Source: Pseudactinotalea suaedae (GTDB taxonomy: Bacteria > Actinomycetota > Actinomycetes > Actinomycetales > Beutenbergiaceae). Taken from it: a DNA stretch of 64,000 bases. Location of the stretch: the NCBI RefSeq assembly GCF_009733815.1, contig NZ_WNXY01000012.1, positions 1 through 64,000 on the forward strand. The letters are read 5' to 3'. The position numbers and the translations under genes were made by a program. Below are positions 2,304 through 6,105 of this stretch, one piece after another; the first letter of the stretch is position 1, and each line of letters opens with the position of its first letter. A model generated the notes under the pieces. That model ran no database searches and was not told the DNA's origin. It saw only the letters and a list, made by a program, of their open reading frames with translations.

Positions 2304-3224
2304 GTGGAACCGACGCCGACTCCCGTGCTGAGCAGCACCCCCGCCGAGCTCGTTCCCGCCCCGGGACACGACGACGAGTTCGCATCCCTCTTCCCCGAGG
2401 GCGCCACGCTCGACCTCCTCGCCGAGGGCGGCACCTGGTTCGAGGGCCCCACGTGGACCGGCGAGGACGAGATCGTCTGGAGCGACGTCGTCGGCAACCG
2501 TCTGCTGGTCTGGACCCCGCAACAGGGCGCCGGCATCCTCCTCGAACCTTCGCACCACCAGAACGGGCACACCGTCGACAACCACGGTCGCCTCGTCGCC
2601 GCCAGTCACGGCGAGCGCGCCGTGGTCCGTCGCGAGCTCGACGGCTCCTGGCACGTGCTCGTCGACCGCCACGAGGGGCGCCGCTTCAACTCCCCCAACG
2701 ACCTCGTCGTCGACAGCCACGACGCCATCTGGTTCACCGACCCCCGCTATGGCATCGACAAGCCCGAGGAGGGCTACGGCGGCACGGTCGAGATGGACGG
2801 CTGCCGCGTCTACCGGCTGACCCCGGACGGCAACGCCACCGCGGTCACCCCGCCGCACCCGGGCCCCAACGGGCTCGCCTTCTCCCCCGACGAGTCGGTG
2901 CTCTACCTGGCCGACTCCGAGGTCGGGCACATCCTGGCCTTCGAGGTGCTCGACGGCGGAGCTCGCCTGGGCGAGCCGGTCACGTTCGCGCGCCTCGACC
3001 CGGGACCGCCGGACGGCATCCGCGTCGACCCGCAGGGTCGCGTCTGGACCTCCTGCGCCTCGGGGATCCAGGTGTTCGCCGCGCGCGGCCCGAGCGAGCC
3101 CGGCGAGCGTCTCGGCTCGGTCGCCGTTCCCCAGCGCACCGCGAACCTCGCGTTCGGCGGCCCGGAGGGCAAGACCCTCGCGATCACCGCCACCTCGGGG
3201 CTGTACCGGCTGCAGACCCGCTGA
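2304..3224 (+). CDS. SMP-30/gluconolactonase family protein
   Basis: Product of 306 residues from a GTG start. It is a six-bladed propeller of the SMP-30/gluconolactonase/LRE type. Diagnostic segments are FEGPTW near residue 46 (metal-binding Glu), the NSPNDLVVD motif near residue 131 (metal-binding Asn), a PNGLAFSPD segment and PDGIRVD near residue 240 (Asp ligand). Family members hydrolyse lactones such as gluconolactone using a divalent cation, but the substrate here is not fixed by sequence. No sugar dehydrogenase lies next to it. The start leaves about 60 bp to the divergent kinase-like gene. Confidence 0.85.
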   Translation: MEPTPTPVLSSTPAELVPAPGHDDEFASLFPEGATLDLLAEGGTWFEGPTWTGEDEIVWSDVVGNRLLVWTPQQGAGILLEPSHHQNGHTVDNHGRLVAASHGERAVVRRELDGSWHVLVDRHEGRRFNSPNDLVVDSHDAIWFTDPRYGIDKPEEGYGGTVEMDGCRVYRLTPDGNATAVTPPHPGPNGLAFSPDESVLYLADSEVGHILAFEVLDGGARLGEPVTFARLDPGPPDGIRVDPQGRVWTSCASGIQVFAARGPSEPGERLGSVAVPQRTANLAFGGPEGKTLAITATSGLYRLQTR

Positions 3225-3257
3225 CCACCGCCGCTGGCCCGCGCCGGGCAGGGTGGG

Positions 3258-3263
3258 TACCCT
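3258..3263 (+). promoter_or_regulatory. Leaderless-type -10 element (TACCCT) for the valS leader transcript
   Basis: TACCCT ends six bases before the GTG at 3270, so transcription would start at or next to the first base of the leader-peptide start codon. The same TACCCT-N6-GTG geometry precedes the truncated hemoglobin gene at 60224. No good -35 is visible. Confidence 0.5.
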
Positions 3264-3269
3264 GTGACC

Positions 3270-3353
3270 GTGATCTCGACTCTTCCGTCCCGCCCTCTGG
3301 TGGTGCTGACGCGCGTCGAGGTACCGGTACGAGTATCCGTACCCCTCGCCTGA
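3270..3353 (+). CDS. Valine-rich leader peptide of valS (putative attenuator)
   Basis: GTG-started 27-codon ORF ending in TGA at 3351-3353. Seven of its 27 codons are valine: two in a row (GTG GTG) at codons 11-12, then codons 16, 18, 20, 22 and 24, alternating with other residues. Four of these are GTA, rarely used in the surrounding genes, where GTC and GTG predominate. A second in-frame GTG lies at 3264. The ORF ends about 100 bases before valS, with hairpin-forming sequence between. Valine-tRNA shortage would be expected to stall ribosomes here, as in classical leader-peptide attenuation. The peptide itself probably has no other function. Its translation is inferred. Confidence 0.7.
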   Translation: MISTLPSRPLVVLTRVEVPVRVSVPLA

Positions 3354-3430
3354 GCGCTCCGGCCGTCGGCCGCGCTCGCGAACCGCAGGACACCCCTGCC
3401 CCCAGCCGCACCGCGGGCCGACCGGCCCGC
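3352..3430 (+). promoter_or_regulatory. Hairpin-rich valS leader region
   Basis: Three potential stems lie between the leader peptide and valS. GAGCG (3352-3356) can pair with CGCTC (3373-3377), overlapping the leader stop codon. GCAGG (3385-3389) can pair with CCTGC (3395-3399). GCGGGCCG (3413-3420) and CGGCCCGC (3423-3430) form a nearly loopless GC stem 23 bases before the valS ATG. No U-tract follows the last stem, so it could act as an intrinsic-like terminator or by occluding ribosome binding. Which structures compete is not resolved. Confidence 0.45.
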
Positions 3431-3453
3431 TGATACCGAGAGACGAAGCGACC

Positions 3454-6105
3454 ATGACCAGCACCACGCCGAGCCAGCCGACATCCACCCGCAAGGCGCA
3501 GGTGCCGGACAAGGTCGCGCTCGAGGGTCTCGAGGAGCGCTGGGGCCAGACCTGGGCCGAGCACGGCACCTACACCTTCGACCGCAGCCGCTCGCGCGAG
3601 GAGGTCTTCTCGATCGACACCCCGCCGCCCACGGTCAGCGGGTCGCTGCACGTCGGGCACGTGTTCTCCTACACGCACACCGACGTGGTGGCCCGCTTCC
3701 AGCGGATGCGGGGCCGCGAAGTCTTCTATCCGATGGGCTGGGACGACAACGGCCTGCCCACCGAGCGTCGCGTGCAGAACTACTACGGCGTGCGGTGCGA
3801 CCCGTCGCTGCCGTACGTCGCGGACTTCACTCCGCCGCACGACGGGACCGACGGCAAGAACGTCAAGCCCGGTGACCAGGTCCCGGTGTCCCGCCGCAAC
3901 TTCATCGAGCTGTGCGAGCAGCTGACCGCTCAGGACGAGAAGCAGTTCGAGGCGCTCTGGCGCTACCTGGGCCTGTCGGTCGACTGGTCGCAGACCTACC
4001 AGACCATCGGCACGCGCGCCCAGAAGGTCGCCCAGGTCGCGTTCCTGCGCAACCTCGCCCGCGGCGAGGCGTACCAGGCCGACGCACCCGGGCTGTGGGA
4101 CGTCACGTTCCAGACGGCGGTCGCCCAGGCCGAGCTGGAGGCTCGCGACTACCCGGGTCACTTCCACGAGGTCGCGTTCCACACCTCCGCCGGTGAGAAC
4201 GTGGTCATCGAGACCACCCGGCCCGAGCTGCTCCCCGCCTGTGTCGCGCTGATCGCGCACCCCGACGACGAGCGCTACCAGGCGCTCTTCGGCACCACGG
4301 TCACGACGCCGGTGTTCGGGGTCGAGATCCCGGTGCTGGCACACCCGGACGCCGAGAAGGACAAGGGATCCGGCATCGCGATGTGCTGCACCTTCGGCGA
4401 CCTCACCGACGTGACGTGGTGGCGCGAGCTGAACCTGCCCACCCGCTCGGTGGTCGGCCGTGACGGTCGCATCCTCGCCGACACCCCCGAGTGGATCACC
4501 ACCGACTCGGGCCGCGCCACCTACGCCGAGCTCGCGGGCAAGACCACCTTCTCGGCGCGCACTGCCGTCGTCGACGCGCTCATGGCGAGCGGCGACCTGC
4601 TCGCCGAGCCCAAGCCCACCCAGCGCAAGGCGAACTTCTACGAGAAGGGCGACAAGCCGCTCGAGATCGTCACCAGCCGCCAGTGGTACATCCGCAACGG
4701 CGGCCGCGAGGCACCCGGGCGCAACCTCCGCGGCGAGCTGCTCGCCCGCGGTGACGAGCTCGCGTTCCACCCGGACTTCATGGGTGTGCGCTACGCGAAC
4801 TGGGTCAACGGCCTCAACGGTGACTGGCTGATCAGCCGGCAGCGCTTCTTCGGCGTCCCGATCCCGCTCTGGTACCGGCTCGACGAGGCCGGCGAGCCCG
4901 ATCTCGGCGACCCGATCCAGCCCACCGAGGACCAGCTCCCCGTGGACCCGAGCTCGCAGGCGCCGGCCGGGTACACCGAGGACCAGCGTGGCGTGCCCGG
5001 CGGCTTCATCGGCGACCTGGACATCATGGACACCTGGGCCACCAGCTCGCTGACACCGCAGATCGTGGCCGGCTGGCTCGAGGACGAGGACCTGTTCGGT
5101 CGGATCTTCCCGATGGACCTGCGCCCGCAGGGCCAGGACATCATCCGCACCTGGCTGTTCGCCACCGTGCTGCGCAGCCACCTCGAGCACGGCTCGCTGC
5201 CGTGGACCGACGCCGCGATCTCAGGCTGGATCCTCGACCCGGACCGCAAGAAGATGAGCAAGTCCAAGGGCAACGTCGTGACCCCGATGGGACTGCTGGA
5301 GCAGCACGGCTCCGACGCGGTGCGCTACTGGGCGGCGTCGGCGCGGCTGGGAACGGACGCGGCGTTCGACCCGCAGCGACCCACCCAGATGAAGATCGGG
5401 CGCCGCCTCGCGATCAAGGTCCTCAACGCCAGCAAGTTCGCGCTCTCCTTCGGCGGTGACGAGCCGGTCTCGCTCGACGGCGGCGCCGTCACCGAGCCCA
5501 TCGACAGGGCCGTGCTCGCCGCGCTGGCCACGGTGGTCGACGAGGCCACCACCGCGCTCGAGAGCTACGACCACACCCGTGCGCTCGAGGTCACCGAGAC
5601 CTTCTTCTGGACGTTCTGCGACGACTACCTCGAGCTCGTGAAGGACCGCGCCTACGGTCGCGAGGACGCCGGTCTCGATCCCGCGAGCGTCGCCTCGGCC
5701 CGCACCACGCTCGGGCTCGTGCTCGACGTCGTGCTGCGCCTGCTGGCCCCGGTGCTGCCGTTCGCCACCGAAGAGGTCTGGTGCTGGTGGCGCGAGGGCT
5801 CGGTGCACCGAGCACCCTGGCCCGTCTCGGCGCCGCTGCGTGAGGCCGCGCCCGACGGCGACCCCCACCTCCTCGCGGCCGCGGGCGCCGCTCTCGCGGC
5901 GCTGCGCAAGGTCAAGAGCGAGGCCAAGGTGAGCCAGAAGACCCGCCTGAGCGCCGCCGTCGTGCACGCCCCTGAGGCCGAGGTGGCGCTGCTGCCGGCC
6001 GTGCTGGCTGACCTGCGTGCGGTCGGCGGCGTCGACGGCGAGCTGAGGTTCCAGGTCGGCGACGAGCACCGCGCCGAGGGTGAGCTGCTCGTCGAGGCGG
6101 AGTGA
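3454..6105 (+). CDS. valS: Valyl-tRNA synthetase
   Basis: Class Ia aminoacyl-tRNA synthetase of 883 residues, the expected length for ValRS. It attaches valine to tRNA-Val in the cytoplasm and edits mischarged threonine. The HIGH-type motif reads HVGH at residues 66-69, after a TPPPTVSGSLH segment. The KMSKS motif lies near residue 600 (KKMSKSKGN). The editing (CP1) domain falls between about residues 230 and 410, and the C-terminal anticodon-binding part follows. The ATG at 3454 has a GAGAGACG stretch 8-15 bases upstream. A valine-rich leader ORF and hairpins precede it, suggesting control by charged tRNA-Val supply. The gene ends four bases from a convergent neighbour. Confidence 0.97.
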   Translation: MTSTTPSQPTSTRKAQVPDKVALEGLEERWGQTWAEHGTYTFDRSRSREEVFSIDTPPPTVSGSLHVGHVFSYTHTDVVARFQRMRGREVFYPMGWDDNGLPTERRVQNYYGVRCDPSLPYVADFTPPHDGTDGKNVKPGDQVPVSRRNFIELCEQLTAQDEKQFEALWRYLGLSVDWSQTYQTIGTRAQKVAQVAFLRNLARGEAYQADAPGLWDVTFQTAVAQAELEARDYPGHFHEVAFHTSAGENVVIETTRPELLPACVALIAHPDDERYQALFGTTVTTPVFGVEIPVLAHPDAEKDKGSGIAMCCTFGDLTDVTWWRELNLPTRSVVGRDGRILADTPEWITTDSGRATYAELAGKTTFSARTAVVDALMASGDLLAEPKPTQRKANFYEKGDKPLEIVTSRQWYIRNGGREAPGRNLRGELLARGDELAFHPDFMGVRYANWVNGLNGDWLISRQRFFGVPIPLWYRLDEAGEPDLGDPIQPTEDQLPVDPSSQAPAGYTEDQRGVPGGFIGDLDIMDTWATSSLTPQIVAGWLEDEDLFGRIFPMDLRPQGQDIIRTWLFATVLRSHLEHGSLPWTDAAISGWILDPDRKKMSKSKGNVVTPMGLLEQHGSDAVRYWAASARLGTDAAFDPQRPTQMKIGRRLAIKVLNASKFALSFGGDEPVSLDGGAVTEPIDRAVLAALATVVDEATTALESYDHTRALEVTETFFWTFCDDYLELVKDRAYGREDAGLDPASVASARTTLGLVLDVVLRLLAPVLPFATEEVWCWWREGSVHRAPWPVSAPLREAAPDGDPHLLAAAGAALAALRKVKSEAKVSQKTRLSAAVVHAPEAEVALLPAVLADLRAVGGVDGELRFQVGDEHRAEGELLVEAE

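Follow-up and report, generated by a model that had tools for sequence, protein, structure and literature searches.

A candidate genus-specific, valine-responsive leader-peptide attenuator of valS in Pseudactinotalea

That an amino acid can control its own synthetase operon through leader-peptide attenuation is known from the enterobacterial pheM leader of pheST, which is similar in this respect to the valS candidate described here and differs from it by a classical intrinsic terminator and by Shine-Dalgarno ribosome loading. In Firmicutes, valS is among the synthetase genes with T-box leaders, which sense tRNA charging in the 5′ region; unlike the present leader, the T-box RNA binds the tRNA directly, without a translated ORF. 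A leucine-rich attenuator reportedly controls ilv genes in Staphylococcus aureus (PMC5794164), and Lopatovskaya et al. in 2010 are said to have treated attenuation of amino-acid and aminoacyl-tRNA operons.

Among actinobacteria, classical attenuators were predicted for Streptomyces leuS (and trpS2) by Seliverstov et al. 2005 (PMC1262725), where the pheST attenuator is mentioned as well and where, in the accessible part of the paper, valS is not mentioned. As described in that part, they resemble the valS leader in that a leader ORF containing cognate codons, together with competing hairpins, precedes an actinobacterial synthetase gene, and they differ from it in having leucine or tryptophan codons and terminator hairpins. 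Leader uORFs of ilvB appear in the available portions of papers on Corynebacterium (PMC10272879) and on ilvB1 of M. tuberculosis (PMC13236596); these are also short ORFs rich in codons for valine and the other branched-chain residues, in which a stalled ribosome selects the rival hairpin, but they belong to a biosynthesis operon, use mixed Ile/Leu/Val codons and are followed by a U-tract hairpin. The mycobacterial polycysteine leaderless uORFs (Canestrari et al. 2020, as cited in the accessible text of PMC13236596 and PMC4633059) have the start codon at the transcript 5′ end and a run of one cognate residue, as is predicted for the valS leader, and differ from it in preceding cysteine genes. 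The principle itself is familiar, and no report was found for valS: no valS leader peptide was among the matches listed in the open PMC literature, which fits the earlier note, where valS control of this kind was held to be little described, save for a possible case that Lopatovskaya et al. 2010 could contain.

The window analysed here is the whole stretch of 64,000 nucleotides of Pseudactinotalea suaedae DNA, and the parts of the leader and valS given below lie on its plus strand. The valS gene, encoding valine–tRNA ligase, occupies 3454–6105 and was scored above the cut-offs of models NF000540 and NF009687 and below that of TIGR00422. The top-scoring NCBIfam model was NF000540 (“alt_ValS”), and 110 of 296 genomes of the class were without a match at E ≤ 1e-150, so two types of ValS may exist within the class. 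Further upstream (1527–1591), between an HNH-like gene and the next genes, the window carries a tandem array with 2.9 copies of the 23-base unit GGACACCGGGCTTGTCGGAGTCA.

Direct reading of the sequence places the leader ORF VISTLPSRPLVVLTRVEVPVRVSVPLA at 3270–3353, where 27 codons are followed by the stop codon TGA (3351–3353), with 100 bases from its end to the valS ATG at 3454. Besides the start it contains seven valine codons, namely GTG GTG (3300–3305), GTC (3315) and a candidate control-codon run (3321–3341) with GTA at 3321, 3327, 3333 and 3339; the short valine-rich ORF in front of valS reported by the earlier note was thus recovered on re-reading. A −10-like box TACCCT (3258–3263) is separated by six bases from GTG 3270. 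No promoter was found in 3100–3600 by the sigma-70 consensus scan. The genus comparison included three genomes, the species of the window (G000), Pseudactinotalea terrae KACC 16542 (G001) and Actinotalea caeni JCM 30447 (G002), and the TACCCT-N6-GTG start, likewise claimed before, is present in the window and in both relatives (3/3 genomes). In the ORF list the leader starts two codons earlier, at GTG 3264, which is absent in G001, and GTG 3270 was preferred because the GTG at N6 from TACCCT is present in all three. This arrangement suggests that transcription probably starts at the GTG of the leader itself, giving a leaderless message, in which case ribosomes would load at the mRNA 5′ end without a Shine-Dalgarno sequence.

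The leader peptides of the three genomes are VISTLPSRPLVVLTRVEVPVRVSVPLA, VTSMFSSRPQVVLTRVEVSVRVHVPLV and VTSFLLAGPSVVLARVEVPVRVSVPLA. Start spacing, the 27-codon length, the stop and the four GTA positions are identical in 3/3 (GTA at offsets 51, 57, 63 and 69, stop at 81), each genome has one such run with 4/4 GTA invariant, and the other residues vary, so the frame and the control codons are kept in close relatives, where their loss had been named beforehand as a refuting outcome. At the base level 20/21 positions of valine codons are invariant versus 37/57 of other ORF codons (three genomes; Fisher one-sided p 0.005), and within codons 11–27 only the ratio is 20/21 versus 23/30 (three genomes; p 0.08). 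The expectation that valine codons rather than the peptide are conserved is therefore mostly borne out in the genus and not across genera, where conservation is lacking because the leader itself is absent.

With 229/438 valS fourfold sites identical in all three genomes as a yardstick, codons 2–10 are no better conserved (14/27 invariant columns), whereas codons 11–27 (43/51), the segment from the stop to the end of hairpin P2 (26/31) and the P3 stretch (21/22) are far better conserved. This distribution bears on the reading of the ORF as a small functional protein, or as one whose only role is to deliver ribosomes to valS. According to the accessible text of PMC4633059, mycobacteria commonly have short leaderless ORFs where transcripts begin, which would suit either role; on the other side, the N-terminal third of the peptide shows no conservation, rare codons are kept, and the 97–100 bases between the leader stop and valS across the three genomes are far for coupling, making both roles very improbable.

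Rarity of the control codon was estimated in 42 window ORFs chosen by GC3 bias, where GTA represents 18/1491 valine codons (1.2%), so that its seldom use in the surrounding genes, as stated earlier, holds; in the three valS genes GTA represents 0/199. The binomial probability of at least four GTA among seven valine codons is ~7e-7. The pattern GTANNNGTANNNGTANNNGTA, i.e., (GTANNN)x4, has a single match in the window and 0 in 100 shuffles, and one match in each of the three genus genomes (4.0–4.8 Mb), always upstream of valS, with 2, 3 and 2 matches on both strands for its reversed control. Valine richness alone is weak, since the probability of at least seven valines in 27 codons is ~0.01 and at least seven valines also occur in each of 24 overlapping 13-codon frames without a stop in other parts of the window, a density above that of the leader, whose seven valines are spread across 14 codons. 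What goes beyond chance is the clustering of GTA and its conservation, not the valine richness. To our knowledge, no rare-codon choice is known in the polycysteine uORFs. The genome gave 45 tRNA matches, with one tRNA-Val each for the anticodons TAC, GAC and CAC, and GTA should be read by tRNA-Val(UAC).

Several RNA structures are predicted in the leader. Hairpin P1 (3317–3348) is formed by the valine-codon run itself (3317–3321 with 3344–3348 and 3326–3331 with 3338–3343); 97% of its cells are paired in the three genomes, with one GC-to-GU change and one mismatch, by which a pair is lost in G002. Its inner-helix arms contain the second and fourth GTA, the third GTA lies in the loop and the TA of the first in a bulge. 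Three hairpins are predicted downstream of the leader ORF. In P2 (3346–3381) the 5′ core arm 3352–3357 overlaps the stop codon and pairs with 3372–3377; there is no broken pair in the three genomes, and one compensatory change of C-G to U-A and one change of C-G to U-G were computed, a covariation that is not significant (157/500 shuffles as good, three sequences only). The alternative helix Palt (3374–3418), in which seven invariant pairs join 3374–3380 with 3412–3418, excludes on paper both P2 and P4; it has no covariation at all in three sequences, and a complement of its length was found in 59, 11 and 0 of 500 shuffles for the three species, which are not independent. For P4 (3413–3430), located just before the valS ribosome site, 12/12 stem columns are invariant and 5/6 loop columns vary (p 0.0007). 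The lack of significant covariation reflects the availability of only three sequences. The predicted fold of the whole leader is not significantly more stable than those of shuffles (z −1.29, 21/200 as good). Constrained energies of P2+P4 and Palt are −45.3 and −41.5 kcal/mol in G000, −50.8 and −45.6 in G001, and −43.5 and −42.7 in G002, and the unconstrained fold of G000 (−46.7 kcal/mol) has a further long helix that excludes P2. The small hairpin P3 (3385–3399; GCAGG-ACACC-CCTGC), with 21/22 surrounding columns invariant, deserves separate mention: no other non-coding stretch of the leader is as conserved as GCAGGACACCCCTGC with its flanks, and pairing in P2, Palt or P4 does not account for this.

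Such strong conservation outside the reading frame allows the block to be regarded as a structured RNA or protein-binding site with GTAC-type repeats, in which the ORF would not be the sensor and valine would be a by-product. The downstream non-coding sequence is indeed conserved like the ORF core (26/31 and 21/22 versus 43/51 columns), and two of the GTA codons sit in P1 helix arms; however, the third GTA and the TA of the first are invariant though unpaired, 3/3 genomes retain the start, frame, length and stop of the ORF, a P1 pair is missing in G002, and the gene that follows is valS. Moreover, no Rfam family was matched at gathering thresholds, where the 64-kb window gave only two tRNAs and, in distinction from the Firmicutes leaders, no T-box. 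On balance we consider this explanation unlikely.

A valine-responsive leader-peptide attenuator of valS, specific to the genus, is in our opinion the probable explanation. When charged Val-tRNA, and above all tRNA-Val(UAC), is scarce, the ribosome would stall in the four-GTA run. The leading edge of a ribosome is about 15 bases from its P-site codon. A footprint of ~26 masked bases is used in the accessible text of PMC13236596. In the computed geometry a stall with any GTA, even the last, in the A site would leave the P2 core arm 3352–3357 free, so that P2 and then P4 could form and valS would be expressed. With ample valine the ribosome would reach the stop and mask the 5′ arm of the P2 core; the P2 3′ arm would then pair with the P4 5′ arm as Palt, within a GC-rich helix that immediately precedes the valS ribosome site, and valS would be held down. 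That P2+P4 corresponds to the starved, ON state is what we infer from the analogy to other leader attenuators.

How the signal would be converted into output is less certain. The earlier note held that three hairpins complete the attenuation architecture; three hairpins are predicted, while completeness was too strong a claim, as there is no U-tract terminator. No U-tract intrinsic terminator was found by the scan in 3100–3600, and no T-run follows P2, Palt or P4 on reading of the sequence, a second line on which the absence rests because the same scan missed a U-tract hairpin at ilvB (see below). We know of no obvious intrinsic terminator in the polycysteine uORFs either. The C-rich segment at 3381–3411 (55% C, 19% G) may be, speculatively, a Rho loading site.

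The same leader sensing could instead act on translation: once Palt has formed, the 5′ part of P2 is left without its partner and could pair with the valS Shine-Dalgarno sequence, putatively GAGAG at 3438–3442, which was found in 3/3 genomes by inspection, so that ample valine would keep valS untranslated. The lack of an intrinsic terminator in 3100–3600 favours this output, and the accessible text of PMC13236596 states that M. smegmatis cysteine genes are subject to uORF-mediated translation attenuation. In G001 the GAGAG bases have unpaired probabilities of 0.16–0.34 with Palt enforced, and the first three have 0.71–1.0 with P2+P4; however, the last two are paired also in the P2+P4 state, GAGAG of G000 is mostly unpaired in both states, and G002 is mixed. 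Shine-Dalgarno masking was accordingly rejected as a conserved output, the folding being inconsistent, with failure in G000 and a mixed result in G002, and a translational output appears possible but rather doubtful. Of the two, U-tract-independent premature termination of transcription, perhaps through Rho, is slightly favoured here over a block of translation.

Outside the genus no comparable leader was found in 113 valS upstream regions. The survey comprised 116 loci, 3 of the genus and 113 others (26 + 27 + 60 loci), after removal of six repeat entries for genus loci and of L024, whose valS is truncated at a contig edge, and scored only ORFs of ≤100 aa with a stop before valS. The top score overall belonged to an outsider (L143) with 7 valines in 12 codons, which has no GTA and lies within an 85-codon hydrophobic ORF, and it was rejected as not leader-like. 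When 396 genomes of the order were searched at the DNA level, 52 had matches with E ≤ 0.001, and only the three genus genomes matched most of the query; the five best non-genus matches (L206–L210) cover 29–45 bases, no valS was detected at E ≤ 0.01 within ~3 kb around them, and they were discarded. The core pattern with ≤2 mismatches was found in 9 of 24 family genomes, exactly only in the three of the genus, and its reversed control matched at a similar rate outside the genus. A looser GTA pattern in the collection scan gave 12 stretches, of which 2 lie before valS (Pseudactinotalea terrae and Actinotalea caeni), and the other 10 had no valS match (E ≤ 1e-30) in the stretch examined.

The absence of the leader in other genera accompanies a different arrangement of the valS promoter, not leader decay. 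In the family 19/20 loci have a −10-like GGGANRAT 6–8 bases before the valS start, the 20th being without the exact motif and one further genome being excluded from the count because its valS is split by contig edges, so valS itself looks near-leaderless there. Close to the valS start of the other 93 loci GGGANRAT was found in 16, a loose TANNNT in 48 and either in 64. Judging from these motifs, a promoter at the valS start seems to have given way in the genus to one that lies ~190 bases further upstream and drives the leader ORF. To the full proposal, that the promoter at the valS start was replaced, in this genus specifically, by one driving a leaderless GTA-reading ORF, with silencing achieved without an intrinsic terminator by Rho or by a block of the ribosome site, we give an even chance.

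Another leader was found before ilvB of the same genome (L155, G000:C18, 3335–3470, minus strand). Its GTG-started ORF VSSTVIVVVLTERASAAV, the internal start being the analyst's choice, carries ATC GTC GTC GTA CTT codons after TACAGT and is followed by a GC-rich hairpin and UUUUU (z −3.11, 0/200 shuffles as good). This hairpin is not listed in L155 by the consensus terminator scan, probably because its loop is beyond the limit of the scan. By its sequence it is a classical-looking attenuator, unlike the U-less valS leader, and since a short ORF rich in branched-chain codons precedes a U-tract hairpin there, the genome seems to use leader attenuation. The peptides of the valS and ilvB leaders have VVLT in common, and an origin of the former leader from the latter is conceivable.

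According to the selective-charging theory, as summarised in the accessible text of PMC1183508, rarity alone does not make a codon the best for control. The rarest valine codon, fixed here at four sites, would make this leader a test of why attenuators choose given synonymous codons. If the proposed mechanism is true, leader-peptide control would extend to valyl-tRNA synthetase, and the switch would have been gained within one genus whose relatives keep a promoter directly at valS.
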